32,557 nt of DNA from Candidatus Gastranaerophilales bacterium (GTDB taxonomy: Bacteria; Cyanobacteriota; Vampirovibrionia; Gastranaerophilales; Gastranaerophilaceae): NCBI GenBank assembly GCA_024695865.1, contig JAILHI010000099.1, positions 1 to 32,557 on the forward strand, read 5' to 3'. Numbering within the stretch: position 1 is the first letter of the stretch; every line of letters begins with the position of its first letter. The notes under the pieces were generated by a model, which did no database searches, had not been told where the DNA came from, and saw nothing but the letters and a program-made list of their open reading frames with translations. A program made the position numbers and the translations under genes. This document shows positions 28,673 through 32,415 of this stretch, piece after piece.

Positions 28673-29653
28673 ATGTTTTCAAATGCAAAAAATATTATAG
28701 ATATAGTTAAATACAGATGGGTATATATGATAGTATCCCTCATGCTGATTATCCCTTCAATTTGCGCAATGGGATATCTGACAATGAAAACGGGAAGCCC
28801 GCTTTTAGTAGGTATTGATTTTACGGGCGGTACAATCATTCAATATTCCGTAGATAAAAAATTAAACAATGATGATATTGCAAAGATAAGAGCAGACTTA
28901 ACAAAGGCAGGTATAGAAAACCCTGTTATTCAGGTTTTGTCGGCAAGTTCATCGGCTGACGGTGAAGCAAAAACAAATGAATTTATTTCCGTTAAAACAG
29001 CCTTTGACGGTGATAAGGACAGCACAAAAACTTCAACCGTTTCGACAACAATCAAAAATTTATATCCCGAAGCCGAACTTGTTCAGGTAAGTTCCGTAGG
29101 CCCTACGCTCGGTAAAGAACTTATGAAAAATTCCTGCATAGCAGTTTTACTTGCAATCCTCGGTATATGCGCATATCTGTCACTGCGTTTTCACGTTGAA
29201 TACGCTCTGATTGCAATTTTCACACTGGTGCACGATGTTTTGTTCGTACTCGGTGTATTTGCTTTCTTGGGTATCTTCTGCAACGTTCACGTTGACTCGT
29301 TGTTCATTACGGCGGTTCTGACAGTATTAGGTTTTTCGGTTCACGATACAATCGTTGTTTTCGACAGAGTCCGTGAAAATCTGAAATTTGCAGCAAAAGC
29401 AACAACCTTCAACGAAGTTGTTGATGCCAGCGTAAACCAGACTCTTGCAAGAAGCATCAACACCTCAATAACCACCTTAATAACGTTGCTCGCTCTGTAT
29501 TTCCTTGGCGGTGTAACGACTAAGGATTTCGTTCTCGCAATGATTTTGGGTATTGCGGTCGGTACTTATTCAAGTATTTTCTTTGCAAGTGTCCTGCTTG
29601 TTTTCTACAACAACATTAAAGATGCAAAGAAAATGAAATCGGTTAACCCGTAA
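28673..29653 (+). CDS. secF: protein translocase subunit SecF
   Basis: 326 residues. First membrane segment at about 17-36, then GIDFTGGTIIQY, a periplasmic loop enriched in Ser/Thr/Lys, VSSVGPTLGKELMKNS, and five C-terminal membrane segments with LGFSVHDTIVVFDRVRENLK and NQTLARSINTSITTL, the SecF/RND signatures. AAGGAG lies 6 bases before ATG. Its stop overlaps the next start by one base (TAATG). Confidence 0.95.
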   Translation: MFSNAKNIIDIVKYRWVYMIVSLMLIIPSICAMGYLTMKTGSPLLVGIDFTGGTIIQYSVDKKLNNDDIAKIRADLTKAGIENPVIQVLSASSSADGEAKTNEFISVKTAFDGDKDSTKTSTVSTTIKNLYPEAELVQVSSVGPTLGKELMKNSCIAVLLAILGICAYLSLRFHVEYALIAIFTLVHDVLFVLGVFAFLGIFCNVHVDSLFITAVLTVLGFSVHDTIVVFDRVRENLKFAAKATTFNEVVDASVNQTLARSINTSITTLITLLALYFLGGVTTKDFVLAMILGIAVGTYSSIFFASVLLVFYNNIKDAKKMKSVNP

Positions 29654-30078
29654 TGGAAAAGAAAGATAAATCATTAGCAATGTTTATAACGGAAGCCCGT
29701 GAAAAGATCGGGCTTTCTTCTTTGCTGCTTGCAAAAAGGGCAAACCTCAGCGAAGAACAAATTCAGGATATTGAGTCAGGAAAAGACCTGTTTTTGTCAT
29801 CAACAGTAAGACAGAAACTCGCAAAGGCTTTAAAACTAAATCCGTCAGAAATCAAGGCTTATGAAAAAACCGTTGATATTCATTATGGCGGCAACGTTCC
29901 AAAGGATTTTGAAGACTATGCCAGAATGAAAATGACTCTCGGTGAAACAGACGATTTAAGATGTCCCGTCTGCGGTTCAGAAATGGTTTTCCGAACGGTG
30001 AAAAGATATGATTTGGAAGACAATCTTATCTTGCACCACAAAGCATCCTGTAAAAAATGTCCTTATCAGATTATTTAA
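29653..30078 (+). CDS. XRE-type HTH protein with C-terminal zinc ribbon
   Basis: I do not recognise a named gene. Residues 8-66 look like an XRE/Cro helix-turn-helix (FITEAREKIGLSSLLLAKRANLS... with LSEEQIQDIESGK). Residues 70-98 form a charged linker. The C-terminal part carries a probable zinc site with CPVC at 104-107 and CKKC at 133-136. It is joined to secF by a one-base stop/start overlap and shares its terminator, so it is co-expressed with SecDF. A DNA-binding regulator is the simplest reading; a link with protein export is only suggested by context. Confidence 0.7.
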   Translation: MEKKDKSLAMFITEAREKIGLSSLLLAKRANLSEEQIQDIESGKDLFLSSTVRQKLAKALKLNPSEIKAYEKTVDIHYGGNVPKDFEDYARMKMTLGETDDLRCPVCGSEMVFRTVKRYDLEDNLILHHKASCKKCPYQII

Positions 30079-30115: not shown

Positions 30116-30724
30116 TTAATTCATTACGCTGCTGGCTGACTGCTGTTTCTTTGCGTACAGAGTTATTGACATATTCAGAAGAATATATTGAGGATTTTTG
30201 TCATAAGGAGTTATTTTTACTTCAGAAACATTTATAAAATAAGGATAAACAGTTAAATCTCTCAAAGCACCCTGTAAATCGGTATAAGTTGCAACAACAT
30301 AATAATCAACCTGACAAACACTGTACAAGGAAGGGAACTTCGAAAAAATCGGGTCTGTTGAAGGACTGATTTGGTATGCAATTGAACGCAGCATAAGTTT
30401 ATTGGTTTTAAGAATTTCGGTAATATCTTCAAACATTCCGCCGAAAGCAGCCATTGAATCTTCAGAACCCATACCTGCATCAAAAACAGGTTTTATTTTA
30501 TTTTGCTGAACTTCGATTTTCTTTTTGGCTTCTTCATATTCTAAAACTTTTTTATTAATTTCTTTTAATTTTTCTTTTTCTTTTCTGTGCTCCATATTGG
30601 TAGTCTGCATTTTTTTGGTAGCACCTACAACCTGCTTAATACCGAAAGCGGCTAACAAAATAATGATTAAAATACCAATAATTACTTCTTTATAATTTTT
30701 CAGAGCTTTTTCATCGAATTGCAT
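30116..30724 (-). CDS. pilO: PilO-like type IV pilus inner-membrane assembly protein
   Basis: 202 residues with the PilO/GspM plan: a short cytoplasmic N terminus, one membrane helix at about 14-33, a Lys/Glu-rich coiled coil at about 37-75, and a periplasmic alpha/beta domain (ITEILKTNKLMLRSIAYQ, YYVVATYTDLQGALRDLTVYP, FINVSEVKITP). PilO dimerises with PilN in the alignment complex that links the cytoplasmic motor to the outer parts. Called mainly on topology and on its place directly after the PilM-PilN fusion (17-base gap). AGGA lies 8-9 bases before ATG. Confidence 0.8.
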   Translation of the reverse strand: MQFDEKALKNYKEVIIGILIIILLAAFGIKQVVGATKKMQTTNMEHRKEKEKLKEINKKVLEYEEAKKKIEVQQNKIKPVFDAGMGSEDSMAAFGGMFEDITEILKTNKLMLRSIAYQISPSTDPIFSKFPSLYSVCQVDYYVVATYTDLQGALRDLTVYPYFINVSEVKITPYDKNPQYILLNMSITLYAKKQQSASSVMN

Positions 30725-30741
30725 AATGTTATCCTAATTTT

Positions 30742-32415
30742 CTATGGGGCAGCGGGAGCCGGTAATCCGCCGGGGGCGTTTGCCTGCGGAGCAGCCGGTG
30801 CTGCAGCATTTGCTGCGGGCGCTGTACCTGCGGCATTTCCTTTTGCATCCTTAGTCTTTGAATCGTCAGTATTCTCTGCGGGATTTTTTGCAGCTGCTTC
30901 ACTTTCTATTACAAACTGATAGGCTGATTCCATATCAGAGCCCGGATTGCCCAAATTAAGTCTTGAAATTTTTAATCCGGGATATTTTGCTTTTAAACTT
31001 TTAACATAAGCATAGATTGATTCACTTTGCTGCGCCCTGCCCAAAATTCTGACTTCGGCACGTGAATTACAACTAAAATGGGTCAAATATACATCATCGG
31101 GGATTTCTGAACCAAGTGCATAAATTAAGGCAAGGTCTTTTTCATTTTCGTCCGATATTTGTTTAGAAACATTATATATGTTGTTAACATCTCCGCCGAT
31201 ATTTGTGGCATTAATCTTTGTCTGCGCTTCAACAAACTGGTCTTTCATTGTGGCAATTTCCGACAATAATTTCTTTTCAAGGACGGACAAACCAAAACTT
31301 AACAAAAGGAATAAACCGAGTATTAAAACGCCTAATATTGTACTTATGTTTAAAACTGCCCTTCTGTCAATTTCATAGTCCTGGTCGAACACGTGCAGAG
31401 TTAACATCTGCGAAATTTCAGAATCTTCACCAAGCAGGAAATTGAACTTAATCGGGAAGGTTTCGTATGTATATGCTGCAGCACCGACGGCTTCCAAAGA
31501 TATCATCGGAGAATATTTTGTCAAAACCGTAGGAGATATTTCCATAAAGGACTTATCTGCATACATATTTCTGTCTAAATATTTTAAATTGCCTTCAAAG
31601 TTAATTTTGTGACATAAAATTTCTGCACTTACATCATTGGTTTCGCTGACTACCAGCAAATTCTTTGCAGGATAGTTTTCCAACGCCGTACCTGCCGCTG
31701 ACGATATTGCAACATAAACTTCATCACTTGAGAAAGACTTAATTGCAAGAGGTTCTTCAAAGTAGTCAACCAGTTTTTTACCCTGCATACAGAATATCGA
31801 ATAACTGTTTGAACCGATTAATAAAATGTTTGTGGTATCGTTTCCGATAAATTCTTCTTCTAAAACCTTACTGTATATGATACCTTTTATCATTGAAGAA
31901 TTTGATGTTTCAACGGCAATAAGTTTTGCCCCTAATTCTTCAAAGATATCTTTTATATTTTGTATGGTATTTTCCTGAATGGCACCATAAACGATGTATC
32001 TTTTTTCGGTTTCCTTATTGACGTTTACCGTATTCCAACTGATAACAGGTTCGTGGCGTTTGAAGAGATACATTTCCTCTACTTCGGAAGCAATTGCCGT
32101 TGAGATTTGCTCATCGGGCAAAACCAGAGGCAAACTCGAAAAAGAGAAATGGACATTCGGAATATTTAAAACAACGTTAGAGTTTTTGGGTGTTACATTG
32201 ATTTCTTTAAACAAATCCTGAATCGCTTCCGCAAAATCTTCATAACTGATAATTTCACGGATTGCGTTGTTATATTTCAGTTCTTTACAGGCATATTTTG
32301 TTATCATTCTTTGACTTTTATCGATACAAATCATTTCAATAACATTTGAGGCTGATACCGATATACCAACTGTCGAAACGGAACTTAATCCTAATGCCTC
32401 TAAAAAGTTTCCCAT
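30742..32415 (-). CDS. PilM-PilN fusion protein (GspL-like architecture)
   Basis: 557 residues in one uninterrupted frame. Residues 1 to about 320 resemble the actin-like PilM domain: VGISVSASNVIEM at 16-28, SFSSLPLVLPDEQISTAIASE around 91-111, ending in EAVGAAAYTYE. From about 322 it continues as PilN: IKFNFLLGE (compare the INLLP start of PilN), one membrane helix at about 355-377, a coiled coil, and a periplasmic ferredoxin-like domain with LALIYALGSEIPDDVYLTHF and VRILGRAQ. The last 50 residues are an Ala/Pro/Asn-rich tail. The usual DxGxxxxK and second phosphate motifs of PilM are not recognisable. It would form the inner-membrane platform with PilO of the type IV pilus apparatus that handles prepilins like that at 1064-1828. 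A short AAGG lies 14 bases before ATG, so the start is moderately sure. Confidence 0.8.
   Translation of the reverse strand: MGNFLEALGLSSVSTVGISVSASNVIEMICIDKSQRMITKYACKELKYNNAIREIISYEDFAEAIQDLFKEINVTPKNSNVVLNIPNVHFSFSSLPLVLPDEQISTAIASEVEEMYLFKRHEPVISWNTVNVNKETEKRYIVYGAIQENTIQNIKDIFEELGAKLIAVETSNSSMIKGIIYSKVLEEEFIGNDTTNILLIGSNSYSIFCMQGKKLVDYFEEPLAIKSFSSDEVYVAISSAAGTALENYPAKNLLVVSETNDVSAEILCHKINFEGNLKYLDRNMYADKSFMEISPTVLTKYSPMISLEAVGAAAYTYETFPIKFNFLLGEDSEISQMLTLHVFDQDYEIDRRAVLNISTILGVLILGLFLLLSFGLSVLEKKLLSEIATMKDQFVEAQTKINATNIGGDVNNIYNVSKQISDENEKDLALIYALGSEIPDDVYLTHFSCNSRAEVRILGRAQQSESIYAYVKSLKAKYPGLKISRLNLGNPGSDMESAYQFVIESEAAAKNPAENTDDSKTKDAKGNAAGTAPAANAAAPAAPQANAPGGLPAPAAP

Follow-up and report, generated by a model that had tools for sequence, protein, structure and literature searches.

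A natural PilM-PilN fusion with a decayed nucleotide site in Gastranaerophilales, a probable motor coupler of a secretin-bearing type IV filament machine

The stretch of DNA analyzed here (hereafter the window) is one whole contig of 32,557 nucleotides from a Candidatus Gastranaerophilales bacterium, with 142 bp left between the start codon of the gene under study and the contig end upstream of it. The initial annotation had described a single frame at 30742-32415 that joins an actin-like domain, one membrane helix, a PilN-like domain, and an Ala/Pro tail. The frame was confirmed, on the minus strand and with 557 amino acids, and the plus strand across the same interval is riddled with stops. 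The features of this gene and of its downstream partner are as follows.

30742..32415, minus strand: fused pilM-pilN gene, 557 aa, one frame with its ATG at 32415
31459..32379, minus strand: PilM-like actin-fold domain, residues 13-319, from the AlphaFold2 model and PDB matches
32332..32367, minus strand: degenerate phosphate-1 motif, residues 17-28, GISVSASNVIEM, with no acid at residue 19 and no Lys in residues 23-28 across 81 sequences
31798..31827, minus strand: degenerate phosphate-2 strand, residues 197-206, ILLIGSNSYS
31630..31650, minus strand: VSETNDV, residues 256-262, candidate place of the PilM adenosine motif, from spacing and the conservation of Ser257
31435..31449, minus strand: KFNFL, residues 323-327, at the fusion joint, from the profile-profile alignment to the start of split PilN
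31279..31353, minus strand: membrane helix, about residues 355-379, a hydrophobic run within the predicted helix 351-404
30901..31185, minus strand: PilN-like periplasmic domain, about residues 411-505 (PF05137, E 2.3e-4; Myxococcus PilN 3jc8, E 1.6e-9)
30745..30885, minus strand: Ala/Pro tail, residues 511-557, pLDDT under 50
30116..30724, minus strand: PilO-type partner gene, 202 aa, 17 bp downstream of the fused gene

A structure was predicted with AlphaFold2 from 81 aligned sequences (mean pLDDT 82.3, pTM 0.64; blocks from residue 11 to 330 between 82 and 98). In the model, an actin-like fold comes first; a long helix, which begins at residue 351 and includes the membrane segment, leads to an alpha/beta domain in the periplasm, and residues 511-557 form a tail of low confidence. 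This agrees with the domain order first proposed. The tail is probably disordered, and tails are variable across a set of 38 family members, drawn from 38 of the 51 genomes with a match described below. In a Foldseek search against the PDB, the top matches of the model were PilM (5eou_B, E 4.0e-18; 2ych_A, E 1.5e-16), followed by a Bacteroides actin-like protein and FtsA, and by the GspL cytoplasmic domain (1yf5, E 6.3e-9). VIA-align superposed 300 residues on 5eou_B with a Z of 23.5 and an rmsd of 4.3, and gave Z 22.6 for 2ych_A and Z 21.5 for the PilM of 3jc8; no GspL entry is among the 50 VIA-align matches listed, which is no evidence by itself.

The best structural match, 5eou, carries the molecule names PilM,PilN and is an engineered chain, PilM:PilN1-12, in which the N-terminal peptide of PilN is tethered to P. 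aeruginosa PilM, as it is in the window protein. The two differ in that 5EOU binds ATP and holds 12 residues of PilN, whereas the window protein has a whole PilN and an ATP site that appears lost. The alignment to 5eou_B extends to model residue 329 (chain residue 366), and the listed PilM-only chains end at model residues 317-319. We assume that P. aeruginosa PilM has 354 residues, which would make chain residue 366 the last of the twelve PilN residues, and on that count the model segment past the PilM fold may lie where the PilN peptide does. Because the alignments of actin and MreB in this comparison likewise extend to model residues 327-331, this end point is taken as a hint only.

Profile-profile comparison bears out the fusion of PilM and PilN proposed in the initial annotation. 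The family aligns to split PilM of the phylum over columns 3-206, i.e., the first part of the PilM-like domain (E 3.3e-15), and to split PilN of the phylum from residue 321 on (E 1.3e-14). The PilN alignment opens with PIKFNFL opposite NIDINFL, which is how the N-terminal peptide of PilN reads in cyanobacteria. In the fusion, PilN thus follows the end of PilM from its own first residues on, docking peptide included, and the alignment identifies KFNFL as the internal counterpart of the N-terminal INLL/INFL peptide. A loose hydrophobic-N/D-hydrophobic pattern occurs at this place in 69 of the 81 sequences. Searched against the PDB, the family profile matched Myxococcus PilN of 3jc8, and P. aeruginosa PilM at E 0.0068, a match we regard as weak since an unrelated receptor-cytochrome construct (E 0.0043) ranks just above it through the membrane/coiled-coil part. 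As a single sequence, the window fused protein had no match in the PDB search and none in an NCBIfam scan, and in Pfam matched the PilN domain alone, at 21.6 bits against a cut-off of 22.8.

As the window is a short metagenomic contig with the fused gene close to its end, two genes might have been wrongly merged in assembly or frame calling. Such an artefact is hardly conceivable given the relatives, where a survey of fused vs. split genes, suggested along with the initial annotation, found no split genes pointing to an assembly error. A homologue of the window protein is present in 51 of the 59 genomes searched (its own included), and in 40 of the 41 that are at least 90% complete; seven of the misses lie within the order, in genomes 78-89% complete, and the eighth, G058, belongs to another order. 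This homologue is one open frame in 49 of the 51 matching genomes, and in the other two (G034 and G044) the match falls into two pieces that each reach a contig end. In a pattern scan of named genomes, 176 loci were confirmed and the best 80 read (58 of them titled Candidatus Gastranaerophilales, and partly overlapping with the genomes of the 59-genome search); in each of these 80 distinct loci a single frame of 548-610 aa is open. When the family profile was searched across the phylum, 126 of 194 genomes matched. Stops were counted in 11 of the strong matches, but five of these genomes have whole frames in the 38-member set and the remaining six, when read through, hold whole frames of 555-575 aa, so the stops sit in the alignment overhang. 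An assembly artefact was accordingly rejected. Separately, genome G160 holds a second partial match to the periplasmic half (C9:71401-71820, E 1.9e-21) with an internal stop, perhaps a decayed copy.

The initial annotation had also read the DxGxxxxK-type motif as SVSASNVIEM and the second phosphate motif as lacking its Asp. Both readings hold: residues 19-28 are as quoted, and across the 81 sequences there is no Asp/Glu at residue 19 (0/81), no Lys in residues 23-28 (0/81), and no acid in the phosphate-2 columns 197-200 (0/81). In the more diverse 38-member set, residue 19 is likewise never an acid (0/38), and a Lys occurs in residues 23-28 in four members. The loss goes further than noted at first. 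Where PilM has the Gly of its adenosine motif (a place assigned by strand order), the fused proteins have Ser257, in 81/81 sequences and in 37/38 of the diverse set. From phosphate-2 to this place, all 81 fused sequences span 58 residues; 36 members of the diverse set have the same spacing, and the other two have 56 and 66. Six related fused proteins from beyond the class span 60-63 residues, vs. 105-114 in nine of the ten split PilMs (all but G060) and 105 in the fusion of G058. The decayed fusions therefore lack about 50 residues at a place that we take to be subdomain 2B of PilM. No intact nucleotide site was found in the profiles, and the alignments indicate that the ATP site is lost from the PilM half, with the acid, the Lys, and the Gly motif absent and about 50 residues deleted.

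Part of this decay is not peculiar to the fused proteins. Ten split PilMs of the phylum, read by eye, have Asp/Glu at phosphate-1 (10/10) but no Lys at the place of Lys26 (0/10), and the phosphate-2 Asp is found only in the four cyanobacteria and is absent from the other six; Myxococcus PilM, too, has Asn at the phosphate-2 place. The losses of the Lys and of the phosphate-2 Asp are thus present as the initial annotation had it, but, shared as they are with split PilMs, they are not marks of fusion, and it is in the further losses that the fused clade has gone beyond the decay common to both. Nor does fusion alone entail decay, because the fusion of the G058 order keeps the phosphate-1 Asp (11/11, with Asn at phosphate-2 in 11/11).

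Glu27 is invariant in both sets (81/81 and 38/38), and tight conservation of Glu27 and Ser257 where the usual motifs are missing could mean that the PilM half still binds nucleotide or another ligand via non-canonical residues, e.g., Glu27 or the SETD loop; the Asn of Myxococcus PilM likewise suggests that single losses are tolerated. With the acid, the Lys, and the Gly motif all absent and the presumed subdomain 2B stretch deleted, we regard such binding as very unlikely, and favor a PilM half that no longer binds nucleotide.

The 202-aa product of the downstream gene is predicted to have a PilO-like fold (pLDDT 83.3). Its best structural match is PilO 2rjz (Z 12.3, 97 residues, 2.1 A), followed by Myxococcus PilO, Akkermansia Amuc_1100, and, lower, PulM (Z 8.8). 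Among the 34 partner-family members that were found whole by a one-sequence search, Pfam PilO matches 13 and T2SSM one; neither matches the partner in the window, which had no Pfam match above cut-off and a single weak, unrelated match in NCBIfam. The pairing of the two genes is conserved: a PilO-type gene lies directly downstream of the fused gene in 79 of the best 80 of the 176 loci, the contig of the 80th ending 105 bp past the fused gene, and in all 21 loci read with wide flanks the two are adjacent and in the same orientation. As the contig ends 142 bp before the start codon, the upstream neighbor is known from relatives only; in 16 of the 21 wide loci, the opposite strand carries two gene clusters upstream, by reading an rRNA methyltransferase and a sigma factor, in some loci with one gene between. 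On the other side, the plus strand of the window at 29653-30078 encodes an HTH protein whose C-terminus has a Cys cluster resembling a zinc ribbon; its gene converges on the PilO-type gene and is still next to it in G003 and G035 (cluster c10).

The phylum-wide search revealed three arrangements of PilM and PilN. In the four cyanobacteria read, PilM and PilN are split, and genes of PilO size and secretin size come after them. Families f10, f16, f19, and f20, outside the class, have fused genes in frames of about 470-540 aa, and six of the seven such genomes searched with PilM_2 (not G072) also have a PilM of split size. Eight aligned fused proteins from outside the class match the Gastranaerophilales family end to end (E 1e-26, 477 columns); these are eight of the 11 first collected outside the order, with G076 copy a, G154, and G058 omitted, and the fused genes of G059 and G096 lie outside the whole-read set. 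Of the 145 genomes of the order, 8 still have a full-length split PilM (at E 1e-12 or better), and all 8 belong to families f2, f3, and f4.

The order of G058, in the same class, also has PilM_2 and PilN domains in one frame, and the G058 fusion lies near two T2SSE-family ATPase genes. A strong PilM_2 match was found in 25 of the 30 genomes of this order that were searched, in all 25 within frames of 578-700 aa, and the fusion looks order-wide. Three of the 11 fused proteins read from this order carry a C-terminal thioredoxin domain with a CPPC center (PF00085, E 4e-16 to 1.1e-15; L225:517-2610, L226:517-2592, and L229:505-2538, minus strand), which in such a PilM-PilN-thioredoxin chain is presumably periplasmic.

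In a tree of the PilM part, built from sequences of this phylum, the decayed fused clade (nine Gastranaerophilales and nine others) is separated from all split PilMs and the G058-type fusions with support of 99/99. This tree omits three long-branch rows (G154, G046, and G032); when they are included, support is 93/94, and the fused protein of G154 joins split PilM, its branch being very long. An independent origin of the G058-type fusion is not claimed: the tree joins it to split PilM, and a single clade of all fused proteins was not rejected in an AU test (p 0.381). In the motor ATPase tree, ten secretin-adjacent motors of Gastranaerophilales group with seven motors near fused genes and that of G072, and this group is separated with support of 92/97 from canonical PilB, cyanobacterial PilB, and E. 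coli GspE. Together, the PilM-part and motor trees place the fused protein in a separate type IV filament system that is shared beyond the class.

The initial annotation had likened the protein to GspL, which passages of two earlier papers already describe as a natural PilM-PilN fusion (PMC10191384, PMC6325625). In build the likeness stands, since GspL/EpsL/PulL/XpsL also combine a PilM-type domain with a degenerate actin-like fold, one membrane helix, and a PilN-type domain in one single-pass chain. In membership it does not: over the 38 fused members at E 0.01, Pfam matches PilN in 29 and PilM_2 (PF11104) in seven, and T2SSL/GspL C-terminal models match none (0/38), nor any of the related out-of-class clade (0/8). 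The fused genes of G003, G035, and G036 match PilM_2 at E 2.3e-4, 6.1e-4, and 6.4e-8, respectively, and the window fused protein itself has no PilM_2 match. Hhalign against one E. coli GspL found no similarity, a weak test with a single sequence. Split PilM and PilN of type IVa pili (PF11104, PF05137), to which both halves align and with which the fused protein shares a PilO partner, differ from it in being two chains and in not having lost the phosphate-1 acid, the Gly motif, and the stretch taken as subdomain 2B. By these comparisons the fused protein appears to be derived from PilM and PilN, and to be a GspL by architecture only. In bundle-forming pili, the N-terminal part of BfpC is described as structurally like PilM and GspL (PMC4471445); BfpC is a type IVb pilus protein.

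A true GspL, sharing a common ancestor with proteobacterial GspL and serving a type II machine (T2SS) that secretes proteins with short endopili, would have the same architecture, a lost nucleotide site, and a shrunken actin fold, and the GspL cytoplasmic domain is among the structural matches after PilM, the Bacteroides actin-like protein, and FtsA. It would also suit the secretin of G010, which scores higher with GspD (222.6 bits) than with PilQ (191.9), and the locus in G093, where a T2SSC-like gene (PF11356, E 5.7e-7) and a motor gene come after a related fused gene. We nevertheless consider this identity unlikely, as the missing GspL matches and the closer PilM fold are joined by further differences. 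The partner is PilO rather than GspM by profile (13 vs. 1 of 34). The secretins of the fused system in G036 and G043 score slightly nearer PilQ, and its motors score slightly higher with PilB than with GspE in 5/5 cases, by a small margin and below both cut-offs. Instead of standing in an operon of the gspC-gspO type, the fused gene and its partner form a two-gene unit away from the secretin-motor-platform operon. The genome of the window further keeps three PilT-family ATPases above the TIGR01420 cut-off, and T2SS is said to have lost PilT in a passage of PMC10191384.

Some genomes hold both versions. G036 and G043 each have two systems, one with split PilMNO, a secretin, and PilB-PilT-PilC, and one with fused PilMN-PilO and a secretin-motor-PilC set. 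A secretin-motor-platform set lies together, apart from the fused gene, in G010, G017, G035, G036, G043, and G046; G010, G017, and G035, where the set is secretin-motor-PilC, belong to the family of the window. In the genus of the window, G001 and G003 have a secretin without a motor gene beside it. No secretin, PilB-length motor, or PilC was seen in the genome of the window (G000), which is 89.5% complete, and G003 shows no PilB and no PilC. A loss of these genes from the genus was considered and dropped, as PilB is present in G001, G002, and G004, PilC in G002 and G004, and a secretin in G001, G003, and G004. The PilT-family ATPases perhaps serve the fused-system machine.

All five fused-system motors scanned carry an MshEN c-di-GMP motif above cut-off (L177:3589-5598, L187:5937-8084, L190:2967-5063, L143:9786-11549, and L148:2673-4889), and the two canonical PilBs scanned list no motif of the MshEN type (at E 1e-3 and 1e-10), which suggests second-messenger control of the fused-system filament via MshEN. 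G010 encodes a further PilB-like protein of 460 aa (L201:3475-4857; PilB model E 1.9e-52, only to profile position 395), the gene of which adjoins one for an apparent response regulator; among the other Gastranaerophilales searched there are T2SSE matches in frames of comparable length.

We propose that this natural PilM-PilN fusion probably acts as the stator on the cytoplasmic side and couples the motor of a type IV filament machine with a secretin. Its PilM half would no longer bind nucleotide. The docking peptide of PilN, now the internal KFNFL, would sit in the groove of PilM, a position that the model suggests weakly, and PilM would be held for good in its PilN-bound state. A PilB-type motor ATPase would dock on the PilM-like domain, and its strokes would pass via the single helix to the periplasmic PilN domain, which would pair with the PilO-type protein. 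A precedent comes from Thermus, where, in passages of PMC6325625, PilM links PilN to the motor, a K26A variant of PilM that is unable to bind ATP still binds the motor and, together with PilN, stimulates it, and PilM without PilN does not. P. aeruginosa work cited in the same passages indicates that PilN binding alters the ATP site or the domain arrangement of PilM. Because PilN is always attached in the fused protein, neither an association step nor ATP favoring it would be needed, and a permanently engaged coupler is proposed; by the same covalent link, regulated exchange of PilM is predicted to be lost. In mechanism such a protein would work like GspL, and by its sequence it is PilM plus PilN. 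The fusion and its joint, the predicted folds, the motif loss, the conserved pairing with PilO, and the kinship of the motor genes are seen in the data; the filled groove, the lack of ATP binding, and the contact with the motor are inferred from them. On this footing, a permanently PilN-locked, ATP-free motor coupler seems to us the likely nature of the protein.

Among the titles listed for an open-access library, none concerned a PilM-PilN fusion outside T2SS, and the words 'cyanobacteria' and 'Melainabacteria' are absent from the main text of a survey of the filament superfamily (PMC6668835). We tentatively raise the possibility, somewhat short of probable, that non-photosynthetic relatives of cyanobacteria have an undescribed type IV filament subtype that is neither a canonical T4aP nor a T2SS and combines a secretin, a PilB-type motor with MshEN, PilC, an ATP-free fused PilMN, and PilO. 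This subtype would have arisen by a PilM-PilN fusion independent of the one in GspL. It may have persisted in most Gastranaerophilales while the canonical type IV pilus was lost, taking the place of that pilus and perhaps making use of its PilT motors.

In PMC5877343, the pil genes listed for a termite Gastranaerophilus sequenced from a single cell are pilA, B, C, T, and D, and genomes of the group published before it are noted for 'partial gene sets' for pili. PilM, PilN, and PilO are present in the relatives searched here, fused or too diverged for ordinary annotation, and may fill this gap in the pilus genes. The phylum further provides split, fused-with-Asp, and fused-and-decayed versions of PilM and PilN for comparison. 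With Thermus PilM able to stimulate the motor without binding ATP, given PilN, a lineage in which PilM is both fused and decayed would fit ATP serving mainly to tune the binding of PilN, and would offer a natural test of that role.
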